Shown piece after piece: positions 1,112 to 10,053 of a stretch of DNA of 64,000 bases (within the stretch, counting starts at the first letter, position 1; each line of letters begins with the position of its first letter). This stretch comes from Bacteroidales bacterium (GTDB lineage: Bacteria; Bacteroidota; Bacteroidia; Bacteroidales; UBA932): assembly GCA_022648685.1 (NCBI GenBank), contig JALCMW010000005.1, positions 1 to 64,000 of the forward strand, written 5' to 3'. Under the pieces are notes generated by a model. The model was not told where the DNA came from, did not search any database, and saw nothing but the letters and a program-made list of their open reading frames with translations. A program made the position numbers and the translations under genes.

Positions 1112-1240
1112 GTTATTCGTACCTGACCGTAACATTATTTGTGACTGACAAGATGTTATCCGTACCTGACCGGACTATTACTTGTGACGGACAAGACGTT
1201 ATTCGTACCTGACCGGACTATTACTTGTGCCGGACAATGA
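1112..1240. repeat. Three tandem 43-bp repeats overlapping the 3' end of hisIE
   Basis: Units at 1112, 1155 and 1198: GTTATYCGTACCTGACCGGACTATTACTTGTGACGGACAAGAC. Exact 43-bp periodicity. Confidence 0.9.
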
Positions 1241-1820
1241 GTTCTTTCTCCAGATCGGCGATAGTACAGCCCATGTGCTCATTTAATACAAGCAAATGGT
1301 AGATAAGGTCCCCGGCTTCATAAAGATAACGTTCGCGGCATCCGTCCACGGCTTCCACCACGGTCTCCACAGCTTCCTCACCTACTTTCTGAGCCATCCT
1401 CTTGACACCGGCACTAAAAAGGGATGTCGTATAGGATTTCTCCGGCATCTCCTTGTGACGCCCCTGGATAACCTGCTGCAACTCACGTATGAAGCCCTCC
1501 GAATCGGGAGTATCGAAACATGCCGTAGTACCTCTGTGACAGGTAGGTCCGGCCGGATATGCCTTGATCAAAAGGGTATCCTTGTCGCAATCCGGAAACA
1601 TTTCGGACACGGTAAGAAAATTCCCGCTGGTTTCTCCCTTTGTCCACAGACACTTGCGCTCCCTGCTGTAAAAAGTCACCTTGCCTCCGGCAACGGTTTT
1701 GTCGAAAGCTTCCTCGTTCATATATCCGACCATAAGCACTTTAAGAGTGTCGGCATCCTGGATTACGACGGGAAGAAGTCCGTCGCTATTTTTCGATAAA
1801 TCGAATTCTTTGAAAGTCAT
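1221..1820 (-). CDS. hisIE: Bifunctional phosphoribosyl-AMP cyclohydrolase / phosphoribosyl-ATP pyrophosphatase
   Basis: HisI motifs (LMVGYMNEEA, SRERKCLWTKGETSGN, GPTCHRG) followed by a HisE domain (GEEAVETVVEA); his operon context. Confidence 0.95.
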   Translation of the reverse strand: MTFKEFDLSKNSDGLLPVVIQDADTLKVLMVGYMNEEAFDKTVAGGKVTFYSRERKCLWTKGETSGNFLTVSEMFPDCDKDTLLIKAYPAGPTCHRGTTACFDTPDSEGFIRELQQVIQGRHKEMPEKSYTTSLFSAGVKRMAQKVGEEAVETVVEAVDGCRERYLYEAGDLIYHLLVLNEHMGCTIADLEKELIVRHK

Positions 1821-1850
1821 AATATTATATTTTTTAAATAAATAATCGCT

Positions 1851-2615
1851 TTAAATCTTGTTCACGGCCATCGGAATCCCCATAGCCGTCAATTGTCTTT
1901 TCAAATCCCCTATTTCTATTTCACCGTAATGGAATATGCTGGCTGCAAGTGCCGCATCGGCCTTGCCTTCAGTCAGAACATCCGCAATATCCTTAACACA
2001 GCCCGCGCCACCGGAAGCTATTATCGGAATCGAAAGGGAATCCGCCAGACGTGCGAAGGTCTCGCATGGATAGCCCTTTTTGGTTCCGTCATGGTCCATG
2101 GAAGTAAAAAGTATCTCACCTGCACCTCTGGACTGTGCCTCGGCCGCCCACGAAAAAAGCTCTTTATCGGTAAGAACCCGCCCTCCTTTTGTCGTCACTG
2201 TCCATCTTCCGTCTATCATCTTGGCATCGATTGCCACAACAACAAACTGGCTGCCGTATTTTGCCGCAATCTCATCGATAAGTCCCGGATTGTATACAGC
2301 CGCGCTGTTTATCGAAATCTTATCTGCACCGGCTTCGAGAAGACGTGCAGCATCTTCCATGGAAGAAATCCCGCCGCCTACGGTAAAAGGGATATTGATC
2401 TCTTTGGAAATCCTTTCCACAAGGGACGTAAACGTATGACGCCCCTCATACGTCGCGCTTATATCAAGATAGACAAGTTCATCGGCACCGGACATGGCAT
2501 AAAAACGCCCCAGTTCGACCGCATCCCCGACATCCTGCAATCCTACGAAATGCACGCCTTTGACGGTACGTCCGTCCTTGACATCAAGACAAGGTATTAT
2601 TCTTTTCGCCACCAT
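1851..2615 (-). CDS. hisF: Imidazole glycerol phosphate synthase subunit HisF
   Basis: [24 protein letters not shown]-terminus; TIM-barrel HisF motifs. Confidence 0.97.
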
Positions 2616-3325
2616 TTTTTCAATTCCTCCGTTTTTATGCGGCCTTCGTACAAAGCCTTTCCTATAATAATCCTTCTAAGACCTTTAGCATCTGCATTTT
2701 CAACATCCTTTACCGAAGAAACGCCTCCGCTGACGGTAAACGATATCCCGGGATATTTATCCTGAAGCCTTGAATATAAATCTAGCGCCGGCCCGGCAAG
2801 CATACCGTCTTTGGATATGTCAGTACAAATTACCTGGGACAATCCCGCACCGGCAAACATATCTATCAGGCCATCAACTCCAAGCGATGCCAAACGGCTC
2901 CAGCCATGAATGGAAACAAATCCGTCACGAATATCGGCTCCGAGCACAATCCTGTCCGGGCCGAAAGATGAAAGCCAGGACGAAAATAGACCCGGGTTCT
3001 CGACTGCAACGCTCCCGCAGACAATTCTGGAAGCTCCGGCATCGAAAACTTTTTTCAAAGAAGCCTCGCTTTTGACACCGCCTCCCCATTCCACAGACAA
3101 ACCTGTTTTGCCCGAAATTACTTTCAAAACATCGAGATTGACAGGCTCCGAAGCTTTCGCCCCGTCCAGATCGACCAGATGAAGCCAACCGGCTCCTGAC
3201 GTTTCATATTTCATTGCAGCTTCCAACGGTGAATCACCGTAAACCGTCTTTTGGCCGTAATCCCCTTGTGTAAGCCGGACACAATTTCCGTCAATAATAT
3301 CTATTGCAGGAATAACTTCTATCAT
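2597..3325 (-). CDS. hisA: Phosphoribosylformimino-5-aminoimidazole carboxamide ribotide isomerase HisA
   Basis: [23 protein letters not shown] motif; overlaps hisF and hisH. Confidence 0.97.
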
Positions 3326-3912
3326 AATGCAATAAAATTTTTCAATATCAAGGCACCTGCATCCCCGCTTTTCTCGGGATGGAACTGAACCCCGTAAAAA
3401 TTCCCTTTATGCAAAGCGGCGCTGAAAAGGATCCCGTTGTCGCTTACGGCGATGGTTCCGTCGCATAAAGAAGCGGCATAGGAATGCACGAAATACATAT
3501 AACTACCTTCCTTTACACCATCTAACAATGGCGATTTCAAAGACGTAATCCTGTTCCATCCCATGTGGGGCACTTTGATTCCTTTTTTCTTGTCCGGTAC
3601 CATACGGACAACATCGGTATCGAATATGGAAAGACAAGGAGTGTTGCCTTCATCGCTACGGCGGCACATAAGCTGGAGTCCCAGGCAGATCCCGAGAACC
3701 GGCTGCGTCAAAGTAGGTATAACGGAATCCAATCCCCTTTCCCTGAGTTTCAGCATTGCTGAAGACGCTTCCCCGACTCCCGGCATAAGGACTTTGTCAG
3801 CTTTTCTTATGACAAAAGGATCAGCGGTCAATTCGAAATCCACTCCCAGACGCCCCAGGGCATTGCAGACCGAACGCAAATTCCCGGTATCGTAATCTAT
3901 TACTGCTACCAT
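3322..3912 (-). CDS. hisH: Imidazole glycerol phosphate synthase glutaminase subunit HisH
   Basis: IDYDTGNLRSV, GICLGLQLM and FYGVQFHPEKSG motifs. Confidence 0.97.
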   Translation of the reverse strand: MVAVIDYDTGNLRSVCNALGRLGVDFELTADPFVIRKADKVLMPGVGEASSAMLKLRERGLDSVIPTLTQPVLGICLGLQLMCRRSDEGNTPCLSIFDTDVVRMVPDKKKGIKVPHMGWNRITSLKSPLLDGVKEGSYMYFVHSYAASLCDGTIAVSDNGILFSAALHKGNFYGVQFHPEKSGDAGALILKNFIAL

Positions 3913-5555
3913 AACATTCCTTTGCTTGAAGGTATCTCGTCACTGAACTTATTCTTGTGCACGGCCTGACGAAGAGCACGGGCAAAAGCTTTGAATACGG
4001 ATTCCGCCAAATGGTGATTGTTCTCCCCTTTGGCTACTATATGCAGATTGCAGTGCATTGCTTCGGAAAGGGATTTGAAGAAATGCCTGAACATCTCAGT
4101 AGGCACATCCCCTACCATTTCCCTTGTAAAAGGGACATCCCATTCGAAATCGATACGGCCCCCCAGATCAATAAGTACCATAGCGCGGCAATCATCCATA
4201 GGAAGAGCGAATCCATATCTTTCTATCCCCCTTTTGTTACCTAGAGCCTTGTACAAAGCCTCTCCCAGAGTAATGGCTACATCTTCCATTGTATGGTGTT
4301 CATCCACCTGAAGATCACCTTCGGCTGCGATCCGCAGGGAAATTCCGGAATGATGGGCAATCTGGTCGAGCATATGATCGAAGAAGTGCAATCCTGTATT
4401 GATGGAAGAAACACCGTTGCCTTCCAGATCGACGGCAACCGTAATTTTGGTTTCTTTCGTATTCCTTACAACGGTAGCCATGCGAACAGATTCCGATACC
4501 ACGGCAGGTTTCTCCGCAACGTCATCTCCGCAATATGCTGACACGGAATCCACAAGGCAATCGTTTTCTTCGGGAGTCCCCACCGTAATTCTCAGACAGC
4601 CTTCGCAGCCCGGTATGGAAGAACGGTCACGGACAATCATCTTCTTATCGGACAGAACTTTATATAATCCCTTCGGATCATCGACCTTGACAAGAAGGAA
4701 ATTCGCATCGCTGGGATATACTTCCCGCACACAGGATATTTTGCCCAATCTCCCTGCGAGGATTTCCCTGTCATGTTTAAGCTCCGACACTTCCTTGGTT
4801 ATATCCCGGCCGAGCAAACCGAAGGCCGCCCTCATTCCGGCAATATTGATGTTATACGGATATTTGACAGAAGAAAATACACTGATAAGATCCTTTGAAG
4901 CATACGCCAGACCGAGCCTGAGACCGGCCATTCCCCAAGCCTTGGAAAGGGTTTGCAGAATTATGAGATTGGGATGGGACTCCAATTCGTCCAAAAGACT
5001 TTGCTGCGAAGAAAAATCGATATAAGCTTCATCAACTACCACCATCCCGTCGAAATGCTCCACCAGATACAGTATCTTCTCTTTCGGAAAAGCATTTCCG
5101 GTAGGATTATTGGGAGAACAAAGTAACATGAGCTTGGTATTGCCGTCTGCCGCGGAAAGCAACCCATCCACCGGAAGGGAAAAACCTTCCTCCAACTGAA
5201 CTTCACGGAACGAAATGTCATTTACGGCGGCCGCCACTTTGTACATTCCGTAAGAAGGAGCTATGGCGACGGCATTATCAATCCTCGGTTCGCAAAATAT
5301 ACGATAGCACAAATCAATTGCTTCATCGCTTCCGTTGCCGATAAATATATTTTCCGAAGGAATTCCCTTTATTCCGGAAATAATTCCTTTCAACCTGATC
5401 TGCAGAGGATCCGGGTAGCGGTTGTATCCGTTATCGTAAGGGTTCTCGTTGGCATCAAGGAATATGCCTTCAGTGCCCTTATACTCGCTTCTGGCACTGG
5501 AATAAGGAGTCAGTTCCCTGATATTTTTCCTGATATAAGCCGAATAATCTTTCAT
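3906..5555 (-). CDS. Fused histidinol-phosphate aminotransferase (HisC) / imidazoleglycerol-phosphate dehydratase (HisB-C)
   Basis: One uninterrupted 549-aa ORF. N-terminal HisC (FLDANENPYDNGYNRYPDP, NNPTG, VVDEAYIDF, LSKAWGMAGLRLG); C-terminal IGPD (GLHFFDHMLDQIAHHSG, DEHHTMEDVAITLGEA, NNHHLAESVFKAFARALRQA). Domain junction near 4481. Confidence 0.93.
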   Translation of the reverse strand: MKDYSAYIRKNIRELTPYSSARSEYKGTEGIFLDANENPYDNGYNRYPDPLQIRLKGIISGIKGIPSENIFIGNGSDEAIDLCYRIFCEPRIDNAVAIAPSYGMYKVAAAVNDISFREVQLEEGFSLPVDGLLSAADGNTKLMLLCSPNNPTGNAFPKEKILYLVEHFDGMVVVDEAYIDFSSQQSLLDELESHPNLIILQTLSKAWGMAGLRLGLAYASKDLISVFSSVKYPYNINIAGMRAAFGLLGRDITKEVSELKHDREILAGRLGKISCVREVYPSDANFLLVKVDDPKGLYKVLSDKKMIVRDRSSIPGCEGCLRITVGTPEENDCLVDSVSAYCGDDVAEKPAVVSESVRMATVVRNTKETKITVAVDLEGNGVSSINTGLHFFDHMLDQIAHHSGISLRIAAEGDLQVDEHHTMEDVAITLGEALYKALGNKRGIERYGFALPMDDCRAMVLIDLGGRIDFEWDVPFTREMVGDVPTEMFRHFFKSLSEAMHCNLHIVAKGENNHHLAESVFKAFARALRQAVHKNKFSDEIPSSKGMLW

Positions 5556-5623
5556 ATCTATATTATAAATATAATTGTCATGGTTACTTTATATGTCGTC
5601 ATCATATTTGATATAATGCCATC

Positions 5624-6925
5624 TCATTTGCGACCGGCATTGGCATCCGCAGCCCCGATTCTTATTTTTACGGCATTGGCATGTGCCTGAAGCCCTTCCG
5701 CTTCGGCCATAGCCGTTATCGTACCGCTCAGATTTTCAAGTCCGGTTCTCGATAGCTGCTGATAAGTGATTTTCCTTATGAAACTGTCCAGATTCACACC
5801 TCCTGAAGCAACAGCCGTTCCCGAAGTAGGAAGGGTATGATTAGTACCCGATGCATAATCGCCGGCACTTTCGGGAGAATAACTTCCCAGAAATATGCTG
5901 CCCGCCGCCGTTATCCTGTCAGCAACCTTCCATGGATCGTCAACAGATATGATCAGATGTTCCGGAGCATACATATTCGCCAGCGCTATCCTGTCATCTT
6001 CTTTGTCCATGACAACAATATGGCTGGATTCCAATGCTTTGGCAGCTATCTCTTTGCGTGGAAGGGCAGCAAGTTGCCTTTCAGTCTCCCGCGTTACCTT
6101 CTCCGCAAAACTTCCGCTTCCGCAGATCAGGAACACCTGGGAATCCGGACCGTGCTCTGCCTGTGACAGAAGATCAGAAGCCACAAAAGAAGGATCGGCA
6201 TTGTCGTCGGCAATAACCATCACTTCCGATGGTCCGGCCAGCATATCTATTGCAACACGATCATTGGACACGATCCGTTTCGCCTTTGCAACATAACGGT
6301 TGCCCGGACCGAATATCTTGTCCACCTTGCCGATAGTTTCGGTACCGTAAGCCATGGCCGCAATTGCTTGGGAGCCTCCGACTTTATAGACATGATCCAC
6401 CCCGCATTCCCGTGCTGCAAAAAGAACTTCAGGAGCAACCGCTCCGTTTTTGCCTGTAGGTGTGCAGATTATAACTTCCCTGCAGCCGGCTATACGTGCC
6501 GGTATCGCAAGCATCAGCACGGTGGAAAACAAAGGAGCCGTACCTCCGGGGATATATAAACCTACACGATCGATAGGGACAGCTTTCTGCCAGCATTTCA
6601 CACCGGGAGATGTTTCCACTTCAATGCCGTCGAATTTCTGGGCTTCATGGAACGCCGTTATATTGCGAATCGCCGTTTTAATAGCATCCCTGACGGCCAG
6701 TTTCACATTCTTGCAAGCCTGTTCATATTCTCCGGACGAAACTTCAAGGTCATCCAGGTCCACTTTGTCTATTTCTTTCGCCAGTCTTTTCAAGGCTGCG
6801 TCCTTGCCGGTTCTCACTTGGGAGATTATATCACGGACACGGGCTTCAATTGCGGAATCATCGAAATCCGGACGTTCCGTCAGCCTTTCCCATTCTTCTT
6901 CCGTCGGGTTATTGACGATATTCAT
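5624..6925 (-). CDS. hisD: Histidinol dehydrogenase
   Basis: Long HisD match, e.g. VGLYIPGGTAPLFSTVLMLAIPA, GPGNRYVAKAKR, IDMLAGPSEV, PTSGTAVASGGVNLDSF. Confidence 0.97.
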   Translation of the reverse strand: MNIVNNPTEEEWERLTERPDFDDSAIEARVRDIISQVRTGKDAALKRLAKEIDKVDLDDLEVSSGEYEQACKNVKLAVRDAIKTAIRNITAFHEAQKFDGIEVETSPGVKCWQKAVPIDRVGLYIPGGTAPLFSTVLMLAIPARIAGCREVIICTPTGKNGAVAPEVLFAARECGVDHVYKVGGSQAIAAMAYGTETIGKVDKIFGPGNRYVAKAKRIVSNDRVAIDMLAGPSEVMVIADDNADPSFVASDLLSQAEHGPDSQVFLICGSGSFAEKVTRETERQLAALPRKEIAAKALESSHIVVMDKEDDRIALANMYAPEHLIISVDDPWKVADRITAAGSIFLGSYSPESAGDYASGTNHTLPTSGTAVASGGVNLDSFIRKITYQQLSRTGLENLSGTITAMAEAEGLQAHANAVKIRIGAADANAGRK

Positions 6926-6967: not shown

Positions 6968-7819
6968 TTACGCAACGATTTTTTCCACATTGAGGATAAG
7001 TATGCCCTCCGCTCCTATTTCCTTGAGCTTGTCTATCTTGTCCCACAATTCATTTTCATTGACGACTGAATGCATGGAACACCATCCCTTCTGGGCCAAA
7101 GGCATTATGGTAGGACTTCTGAGTGCAGGCAATATGCCTATGGCTTCGTCCACGGCACTGTCCGGCAGATTCATCAGGATATATTTCTTGCCTCTTCCCA
7201 TCTGTACCGATTCGAAACGGAACAGCAATTTCTCCACCAATGCTTTTTTATCGGCGGAAAGTCCACGGTTTCCGATAAGCACGGCTTCCGAATAAAGGAC
7301 TTTTTCAACTTCCTTGAGTCCGTTTGAAACAAGAGTGCTTCCGGAAGAAACGATATCGAATATAGCATCGGCCAGACCGGCGGCCGGAGCTATCTCCACG
7401 GAACCGGCTATTGTATGTATTTCTCCATTAATACCTTTCTCTTTAAAAAACTCCTTTAGTATATTAGGATATGAAGTAGCTATCCTTTTGCCGTTGAAAT
7501 AAGAGAGTGAATTGTAGTCTACGTTTTTGGGAACGGCAAGAGAGATCCTGCAAGCTCCGAAAGAAAGTTTTTTCAATATTTCAACGTCGAAACCACGCTC
7601 TTTCACTTCGTTGTAACCGACGATGCCGATATCTGCCGCCCCCATGGCCACTGTCTGTGGAATGTCGTCGTCCCTCAGGAAAAGGACTTCTATGGGAAAA
7701 TCCGCCGATTTGGCCAGGAATTTCCTTTTGTCCTCATTAACGGTTATCCCCGCCTCCTTGAGCAATTCAACACTCTCTTCATTTAATCTTCCTTTTGTCT
7801 GGATTGCGATTCGTAACAT
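6968..7819 (-). CDS. hisG: ATP phosphoribosyltransferase (long form)
   Basis: LRIAIQTKGRLNEESVELLKEAG N-terminus; C-terminal regulatory domain; first structural gene after the his leader. Confidence 0.96.
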   Translation of the reverse strand: MLRIAIQTKGRLNEESVELLKEAGITVNEDKRKFLAKSADFPIEVLFLRDDDIPQTVAMGAADIGIVGYNEVKERGFDVEILKKLSFGACRISLAVPKNVDYNSLSYFNGKRIATSYPNILKEFFKEKGINGEIHTIAGSVEIAPAAGLADAIFDIVSSGSTLVSNGLKEVEKVLYSEAVLIGNRGLSADKKALVEKLLFRFESVQMGRGKKYILMNLPDSAVDEAIGILPALRSPTIMPLAQKGWCSMHSVVNENELWDKIDKLKEIGAEGILILNVEKIVA

Positions 7820-7896
7820 ATTATTATCTGATTTTTAAAATTTATCTTTTCCCGGCTATGGCAGCGCCTTTCCTGCCTTTCCAATCACTCCGGGGC

Positions 7897-7932
7897 ATAA
7901 AAAAAGGCTCGCCCTGACGTAGGGGAAGCCTA
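7897..7932 (-). terminator. his attenuator terminator hairpin
   Basis: Minus-strand AGGCTTCCCCT-ACGTC-AGGGCGAGCCT followed by TTTTTTT, between the leader peptide and hisG. Confidence 0.85.
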
Positions 7933-7968
7933 TATATCGTAACACACACGAGCAGCCGCCCTACTTCA

Positions 7969-8016
7969 TTATGAATCGGGATGATGATGGTGCTCTATGT
8001 TGAAACTGCAAGTCAT
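7969..8016 (-). CDS. hisL: his operon leader peptide MTCSFNIEHHHHPDS
   Basis: Minus-strand ATG at 8016; 15 codons with four consecutive His codons (CAC CAT CAT CAT), stop TAA at 7969-7971; followed by a terminator hairpin and hisG. Confidence 0.88.
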   Translation of the reverse strand: MTCSFNIEHHHHPDS

Positions 8017-8035
8017 TTGCTATAAAATTCGCTTT

Positions 8036-8064
8036 CAAAGGTAGACATTTTTTTGATAAAACAA
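8036..8064 (-). promoter_or_regulatory. his operon promoter (Bacteroidetes-type)
   Basis: Minus-strand TTG (8062-8064), 18-nt spacer, TACCTTTG (8036-8043) matching TAnnTTTG; 19 nt upstream of the leader-peptide ATG. Confidence 0.6.
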
Positions 8065-8086
8065 GTATTTTACCTTAAGTTTTGTT

Positions 8087-8094
8087 TAAATTTG
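8087..8094 (+). promoter_or_regulatory. -7 element for the proCBA operon
   Basis: TAAATTTG matches TAnnTTTG, upstream of proC. Confidence 0.4.
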
Positions 8095-8149
8095 CTTGGG
8101 ATATGGAAAAATGAGCATATATAGTGGTGTATTATCAATCGAAAGCAAT

Positions 8150-8965
8150 ATGAAAACAGCAGTATTGGGCGGAGGAAACATGGGTGGCGCCATAGCAAAG
8201 AGTTTCTTCGCCGGCATAAACGGAACCGAAAAAATCATTACGGGAAAGAATCCTGAAATAGAAGTAACTGTCACCCACGCACGGGAAGACCTTAGAAAAT
8301 GGAATTCAGAAAACGGATCCGTCATAGAATTCGCTGAAGATAACTGCAAAGCAATTGCCGGAGCCGATATTGTAGTTCTTGCCGTAAAGCCTTATAAGGC
8401 GGAAGAAGTCATAAACGGAATAAAGGATGCTCCGGATTTCCGGAACAAAACGATAATTTCGGTAGCCGCCGGGATTTCATGCGGACAATTGCAGGAAATG
8501 TGCGGAAATCCGGAACAAAACGTATTCAGGATAATTCCCGATACGGCGATAATGCTGGGCCAAAGCGCAACTTTCATAAGCTGTTCTTCCGGATGTACAA
8601 CGGAGATGAGAAAAACCGTAAGGGAGATTTTCAGCAGGACCGGACAAGTCTATGAAGTGGAAGAAGATTTGATGTCCGCACTTACCGCCCTTTCTTCATG
8701 CGGCATCGCATACGTGATGAGATTCATCGCAGATATGATAAATGCAGGCAATGCAGAGGGAATAGCGTATGAACTTTCCCGGAAAGTGGTTTTCCAGACT
8801 GTAAAAGGCGCCCTGGCTCTGCTTGACCGTAAAGACGCCGATGCCGAGACTGAAATAAAACGCGTGTGCACTCCCGGGGGAATAACCGAGAAAGGTCTGA
8901 AAGCCATGGAAGAACACGGATTCGGGGAAGCCGTAAAGGCCGGAATAAAAGCAAGCATTAAATAA
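8150..8965 (+). CDS. proC: Pyrroline-5-carboxylate reductase
   Basis: MKTAVLGGGNMGGAIAKSFF start; VLAVKPYKAEEV; C-terminal VCTPGGITEKGLKAME. Start moved downstream of the ORF-track start. Confidence 0.93.
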   Translation: MKTAVLGGGNMGGAIAKSFFAGINGTEKIITGKNPEIEVTVTHAREDLRKWNSENGSVIEFAEDNCKAIAGADIVVLAVKPYKAEEVINGIKDAPDFRNKTIISVAAGISCGQLQEMCGNPEQNVFRIIPDTAIMLGQSATFISCSSGCTTEMRKTVREIFSRTGQVYEVEEDLMSALTALSSCGIAYVMRFIADMINAGNAEGIAYELSRKVVFQTVKGALALLDRKDADAETEIKRVCTPGGITEKGLKAMEEHGFGEAVKAGIKASIK

Positions 8966-10053
8966 TGGAAACGGCAAAGCAAAAACGCAGGATAGTAATA
9001 AAAATAGGAAGCAATGTACTTGCCCGTCCCGACGGTCTGCCGGATCTGGTAAGCATGGCTTCCATAGTAGACCAGACGGCATCTCTCCACAAGGATGGTG
9101 TGGAAGTGATTCTGGTATCTTCAGGAGCCGTGGCTTACGGAAGAAAGGAAATCGAAGCCGGCGAACATCTGGACCAGGTGTCGGCAAGGCAACTTTATGC
9201 TGCTGTCGGACAGGCAAAACTGCTCCAGAATTACTATTCCCTTTTCCGGAATTACGGAATCACATGCGGGCAGGTACTCACAACAAAAGAATCCCTTTCC
9301 ACCCGCTCTCATTATCTGAACCAACGCAATTGCCTTCACACAATGCTGCAATGCGGAGTAATACCTATCATAAACGAAAACGACGCCATATCCGTCACAG
9401 AGCTCATGTTCACTGACAACGATGAGCTGTCGGGCCTGATAGCGACCATGATGAATGCGGACATGCTGCTGATACTAAGCAATGTCGATGGAATCTATGC
9501 CGGAAATCCGAAGGAAGGTGCTCCCCTGATAGAATGTGTGGATTCGGACAATCGTGATATGTCGGACTATGTGAGCACCGGGAGTTCTTCGTTCGGACGC
9601 GGCGGAATGCTGACGAAAAGCCGGATAGCATCCAAAGTTGCCGATGAAGGAGCCGATGTCGTGATAGCAAACGGACGCACCCCTGGAATAATAACCGGAG
9701 CTATCCTGAAAGGACCGGATAAAATCCGCTGCACACACTTCATTCCAAGCCATAAGATTTCCGGAGTGAAGAAATGGATAGCCCATTCGGAAGATTTTGC
9801 CAAAGGTGAGATCCATATAGACGCAGGGACATCGGAAGCTCTGCAAGCATCCAAGGCCGTCAGCCTTCTCCCGGTAGGCGTAACCGGAATCACGGGGAAT
9901 TTCGAGGCCGGAGACATTGTCAGGATAATAGACCCCGACGGCAGGCAGATCGGCGTAGGCAAGGCGATGTACGGAAGTGCAGCAGCACTCAAGACGATAG
10001 GCAGGAAAGGCCAGCGGCCTATAATTCATTACGATTATCTTTATCTGGATTGA
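8965..10053 (+). CDS. proB: Glutamate 5-kinase (with C-terminal PUA domain)
   Basis: RIVIKIGSNVLARPDG, LVSSGAVAYGR, INENDAIS, FGRGGMLTKSRIA motifs. Confidence 0.95.
   Translation: METAKQKRRIVIKIGSNVLARPDGLPDLVSMASIVDQTASLHKDGVEVILVSSGAVAYGRKEIEAGEHLDQVSARQLYAAVGQAKLLQNYYSLFRNYGITCGQVLTTKESLSTRSHYLNQRNCLHTMLQCGVIPIINENDAISVTELMFTDNDELSGLIATMMNADMLLILSNVDGIYAGNPKEGAPLIECVDSDNRDMSDYVSTGSSSFGRGGMLTKSRIASKVADEGADVVIANGRTPGIITGAILKGPDKIRCTHFIPSHKISGVKKWIAHSEDFAKGEIHIDAGTSEALQASKAVSLLPVGVTGITGNFEAGDIVRIIDPDGRQIGVGKAMYGSAAALKTIGRKGQRPIIHYDYLYLD

Follow-up and report, generated by a model that had tools for sequence, protein, structure and literature searches.

Architecture of the his leader

The stretch of DNA analysed here (64,000 nt; hereafter the window) carries a complete his operon, and direct reading places all parts of the leader described below upstream of this operon on the minus strand (Table 1). 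Judging from the translations of their ORFs, the neighbouring genes that diverge from it on the plus strand resemble proC, proB and proA. Every coordinate that a preliminary description of the locus had assigned to a part of the leader proved right on direct reading, and the Bacteroidetes-type promoter that it had placed upstream was found as a TTG element and a -7 box. Transcription is predicted to start near position 8030. A similar box (TAnnTTnG, in the 60 nt preceding the leader ATG) is present in 101 of 138 leaders, compared with 16 under the null.

Table 1. Positions of the leader parts and his genes in the window.
Feature	Position	Strand	Details
Promoter, Bacteroidetes-type	8036..8064	-	TTG 8064-8062, 18-nt gap, -7 box TACCTTTG 8043-8036
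Leader ORF, MTCSFNIEHHHHPDS*	7969..8016	-	15 codons; ATG 8016-8014, TAA 7971-7969
Segment 1	7989..7999	-	Overlaps first His codon; GAGCACC pairs with GGCUGCUC and outward; fold of the untranslated leader
Segment 2	7950..7964	-	GUAGGG 7964-7959, GGCU 7957-7954, UGCUC 7954-7950; partner is segment 1 or 3
Segment 3	7919..7930	-	GGCU 7930-7927, CCCUAC 7924-7919; antiterminator partner and 5′ arm of terminator
Intrinsic terminator (3:4)	7899..7931	-	Stem 7931-7905, 10 pairs, one mismatch
hisG	6968..7819	-	First gene of operon; ATG 7819; TIGR00070, 209.5 bits
hisD, hisC-hisB fusion, hisH, hisA, hisF, hisIE	1221..6925	-	ORFs with NCBIfam matches

The leader ORF includes four consecutive His codons (CAC CAT CAT CAT; 7992-7981, minus strand). 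Two defining features of attenuators are evident: a short ORF rich in codons for the regulated amino acid precedes the matching operon, and an intrinsic terminator lies between this ORF and hisG. The terminator begins 40 nt beyond the leader stop codon, has a computed stability of -13.9 kcal/mol and runs into seven U residues at 7905-7899, in agreement with the hairpin proposed earlier. No Shine-Dalgarno-like sequence precedes the leader ATG at 8016, and such a sequence was found before the leader start in only 6 of 138 leaders.

Distribution of the leader

To assess recurrence beyond chance, 195 distinct hisG upstream regions were searched for short ORFs of 6-60 codons with at least three consecutive His codons. 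These regions are nearly all from Bacteroidota and include some families without a leader. Such ORFs were found in 129 of the 195 loci, in agreement with the HHHH peptide reported for the window, but in only one locus each on the antisense strand and in dinucleotide-shuffled sequence. Runs of any other residue occurred in at most 25 of these regions on the sense strand. The His codons are conserved among leaders while the remaining peptide residues vary, and the order and spacing of the leader parts are conserved across relatives. The resemblance to the HPD ending of Escherichia coli HisL that had been pointed out is coincidental: PD directly follows the last His run in 1 of 138 leaders. We have accordingly discarded homology of the two peptides by way of 'HPD', which is not conserved in relatives.

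In an automated survey, a leader with a terminator was present in 39 of 42 sampled genomes from other orders of the class and in 23 of 29 nearer relatives; inspection by hand added a genome of the same genus (L005). The leader is found in most named Bacteroidales, for example Bacteroides salyersiae, Dysgonomonas sp. 511 and Paraprevotella xylaniphila. Outside the class, the combination occurs in families f40 (10 of 11), f45 (3 of 4) and f58 (3 of 3), and was not seen in sampled families whose HisG starts with L-x-hydrophobic-G-L-P-K-G. The leaders outside the class that accompany the same HisG type would fit joint transfer of operon and attenuator; for two Chlorobiota, acquisition of an entire compact his operon from Bacteroidota or Balneolota has been argued (PMC8305728). 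Family f47, also outside the class (L033-L037, L103, L107, L109), has leaders that are unusually rich in His, in interrupted runs such as HHGVHHAHHGHHHIHVQ; most of these were missed by our script, which accepts only ATG starts, and they often lack an ATG within reach.

Some lineages lack the element. In Prevotella and relatives (L182, L183, L192, L197), the 200 nt preceding hisG show neither leader nor terminator, and several of these loci have a promoter-like box near the hisG start, which suggests that attenuation has been lost in this lineage. In the genome closest by HisG (L002, 68%) and in some other genomes of the same genus, no leader was found where hisG follows another gene. Within the genome itself there are 10 HHHH-codon runs, and only one leader-like short ORF besides that of the window. 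This second candidate (MTLSVHHHHFYMQTT, L210) was rejected, as it lies antisense inside a lipoprotein gene.

To our knowledge, ribosome-RNA polymerase coupling has not been established for Bacteroidota, and this gap gives some room to a model in which the ribosome senses the leader peptide but control is translational, acting on ribosome access to hisG. Some attenuators do act on the ribosome-binding site (PMC9413887). However, the hairpin of the window is followed by seven U residues and stands some 80 nt ahead of the hisG start codon, with no overlap, and a leader with a U-run hairpin recurs in 138 loci. Translational control of this kind is thus very unlikely.

Covariance and Rfam searches

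The preliminary description had proposed a covariance search of the leader across related genomes. We built a covariance model from 45 relatives with the window left out. In the 64 kb of the window this model gave a single match, at 7899-8000 on the minus strand (44.4 bits, E = 9.7e-9). Over the whole genome the same locus ranked first (E = 3.7e-7) and the next best match had an E value of 0.26. The model also matches independent loci of the class.

A search of positions 7000-9000 with 4227 Rfam families, T-box included, produced no significant match to the leader; the window gave chance matches only. The known His_leader family (RF00514, gathering threshold 49 bits) does not match in the window, and it scores four relatives at 30-37 bits, in the right place and under the threshold. 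By this test the window leader falls outside RF00514, although it would work alike. The same searches bear on a different type of sensor, in which a T-box, another riboswitch or a leader-binding protein would detect histidine and the ORF would be secondary. Firmicutes his genes are indeed controlled by T-boxes and the HisR repressor (PMC9413887), yet the leader has no significant Rfam match, and what is retained among relatives is the His codons and short alternative pairings rather than a larger conserved fold. We find this explanation barely credible.

Alternative pairings covary

Classical attenuation calls for mutually exclusive structures, and in the window the 2:3 antiterminator excludes the 3:4 terminator while 1:2 excludes 2:3. 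The 2:3 pairing is longer than the GUAGGG:CCCUAC helix originally described, as a GGCU:GGCU helix extends it to 10 pairs (-15.2 kcal/mol versus -13.9 kcal/mol for the terminator). In the 1:2 fold, the pairing of GAGCA (7995-7991) with UGCUC was borne out and can be extended: CCC of the Pro codon also binds GGG in segment 2, and UUCA and UGAA pair around the stop codon.

These pairings were tested in 128 loci where both leader and terminator were clear. Position alone set the limits of the segments: the first reached from 15 nt ahead of the His run to the stop codon, the second from the stop region to the terminator, and the third along the 5′ arm of the terminator. Duplexes formed between segments of the same genome were more stable than those between genomes, both for 2:3 (mean -11.7 versus -9.2 kcal/mol, z = -12) and for 1:2 (mean -19.1 versus -14.8 kcal/mol, z = -15). 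When segment 2 was shuffled with its composition kept, the effect fell from -2.5 to about -0.3 kcal/mol for 2:3 and from -4.3 to about -0.1 kcal/mol for 1:2. Because shuffling nearly abolishes the effect, both pairings carry a signal beyond composition. The corresponding figure for 3:4 was dropped as circular, since the hairpin had been chosen for stability; in the alignment of relatives, 6 of the 8 terminator pairs have changes on both sides. In line with the preliminary description, the His codons are conserved in relatives and the 1:2 and 2:3 pairings covary.

Folding with stalled and terminating ribosomes

Equilibrium folding of whole leaders prefers the terminator in most states, and we rejected it as a model of attenuation because the terminator wins nearly all of them. 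Partial transcripts reaching up to segment 3 were used instead. The preference at equilibrium also means that segment 3 must be captured during transcription, as in classical attenuators generally. In the model, the ribosome is assumed to cover 12 nt counted from the first base of the A-site codon. With this footprint, the spacing is such that segment 2 is masked by a ribosome resting on the stop codon but left exposed by one stalled at the His codons.

Across the modelled loci, the 5′ arm of the terminator is blocked with a mean probability of 0.74 when the ribosome is stalled at the His codons versus 0.27 when it is at the stop codon. A switch, taken as a difference above 0.3, was computed for 73% of loci and for 18% when the spacer was shuffled. 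The window responds in the right direction and more weakly than the average locus (0.78 versus 0.49). With no ribosome present, the bases through which segment 2 would bind segment 3 are engaged in other pairs even before the latter is made (mean 0.69; 0.60 in the window); in the window this value hardly shifts with a stalled ribosome (0.59). Applied to E. coli hisL, the procedure gave no difference between stall and stop, a limit of the method that presumably arises because that leader works through extra stems.

The modest switch computed for the window, together with the abundance of terminators in general, could be taken to indicate that his expression is constantly lowered by an unregulated hairpin, either an intrinsic terminator or a leader stem, beside which the His-rich ORF is incidental. 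But the His runs counted upstream of hisG are far above chance, and the 2:3 pairing, which covaries across species, would serve no purpose in a plain terminator. We therefore judge an unregulated hairpin to be very improbable.

Sequence and modelled folding together argue that the window leader is real and correctly read, and that it is very probably a working histidine attenuator of the classical kind. We place at about 0.93 the probability that it acts as a ribosome-mediated transcription attenuator of the his operon that senses charged tRNA-His. The leader parts are present, conserved and covarying, and their folding is consistent with each ribosome state.

In the proposed mechanism, RNA polymerase would start near 8030 and a ribosome would enter the 15-codon leader. 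Were charged tRNA-His scarce, the ribosome would stall on the four His codons and cover segment 1, leaving segment 2 free to pair with nascent segment 3; the terminator would then be blocked and the genes from hisG to hisIE transcribed. When histidine is plentiful, the ribosome would reach the stop codon and cover the start of segment 2, so that 3:4 could form and transcription would end at the U-run. Without translation of the leader, 1:2 would be the first structure to form, and termination would again follow. We infer the ribosome footprint, the timing and the actual dependence on histidine in this scheme.

Relation to known attenuators

The window leader shares with E. coli hisL (RF00514) a short His-run leader peptide before hisG, alternative folds and an intrinsic terminator. 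The E. coli leader, MTRVQFKHHHHHHHPD, has seven His codons rather than four, a stop-to-terminator distance of 63 nt rather than 40 nt, a terminator of -28 rather than -13.9 kcal/mol and a more complex fold, whereas the window leader is a compact four-segment device. It also resembles the Firmicutes his attenuators of the Bacillus cereus group, Peptostreptococcaceae and Erysipelotrichales, which have 3-5 consecutive His codons with a terminator and antiterminator and are likewise unlike RF00514 (PMC9413887). Those belong to another phylum and to few species, however, whereas the type found in the window occurs in nearly all sampled genomes of its class.

Attenuators were reportedly predicted in Bacteroidetes/Chlorobi in a 2004 FEMS comparative study. 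The Bacteroid-trp RNA (RF01692), which we take to be tied to trp attenuation, matches neither the his leader nor the trp leader of this genome. Like the window leader, it is a predicted cis-regulatory RNA of Bacteroidetes (PMC2864571). The long 5′ UTRs of B. thetaiotaomicron contain short ORFs reminiscent of leader peptides (PMC7366714). Within the same phylum, work on Flavobacterium psychrophilum gives strong clues that amino-acid operons are preceded by leader-peptide attenuators and describes structured elements before hisG and pheA (PMC9723704). By the account in its main text, the hisG element of Flavobacteriaceae has no Rfam match, and that text includes neither a phylum-wide distribution nor pairing tests. 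Beyond that report, as far as its main text goes, we found none in the open literature on his attenuators across Bacteroidota. A dedicated survey of the superphylum's his genes, published in 2021, brings up attenuation a single time, with reference to enterobacteria, and is silent on the Bacteroidota his leader (PMC8305728).

The preliminary description had extended the ribosome-stalling logic of enterobacteria to a Bacteroidetes-like genome. This extension is supported by all the evidence that sequence can supply, but notice of it in the phylum already existed. Given the earlier reports (PMC9723704, in its main text, and PMC7366714), the kind of element is known and hints of it exist. As far as the open literature shows, what is added here is the class-wide spread and the tested pairings. 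The his leader family is nearly universal among the sampled genomes of its class and uncatalogued in Rfam, which would thereby gain an RNA family.

Classical attenuation requires a ribosome closely behind RNA polymerase, and experimental knowledge of it comes mostly from proteobacteria. Translation initiation in Bacteroidota proceeds mostly without Shine-Dalgarno sequences. We put forward tentatively, at somewhat less than even odds, that the window leader belongs to a family of compact his attenuators that is old and near-universal in Bacteroidota, works without Shine-Dalgarno sequences, has counterparts for Phe/Tyr, Ile/Val/Leu and Trp, and passes from class to class together with the his operon. 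In that case ribosome and RNA polymerase would be closely coupled as a general rule in Bacteroidota, at least in operon leaders. Conserved leader attenuators could serve as ready reporters for asking whether a major phylum of gut bacteria couples transcription to translation, and how tightly; the window leader, ordinary in kind, offers a clean test-bed for this purpose.

Other leaders and his genes

Targeted searches of other operons in the genome yielded three candidate leaders. A candidate Phe/Tyr leader, MIDERFYNAGYYFFYYRKGNGPDVVCHR, with a terminator of -20.8 kcal/mol lies before pheA (L218:2984-3190; G000:C1 near 560,500), and a candidate Ile/Val/Leu leader, MINISIIVVSILSLVLKTFRPGRRM, with a terminator of -18.3 kcal/mol lies before ilvD (L215:1984-2130; G000:C1 near 459,500). 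The third, a candidate Trp leader containing CWW with a terminator of -20.3 kcal/mol (L217:719-898; G000:C6 near 88,300), is followed by trpB and then a trpE-like gene.

Bifunctional hisNB was reported in 72 of 72 Bacteroidetes examined (PMC8305728). In the window, hisC is fused to the dehydratase half of hisB in one 549-aa ORF (3906-5555, minus strand), which lacks the HisN phosphatase domain. A PHP-type HisJ-like phosphatase is encoded elsewhere in the genome (C1:104393-105142; 134 bits, above cut-off). Similar hisC-hisB fusions are present in at least 12 named Bacteroidales loci. Single frames of about 1000 codons with a HisC motif occur at L166:3838-6817, which also has a HisB motif, and at L149:3844-6844; these are possibly hisD-hisC-hisB fusions.
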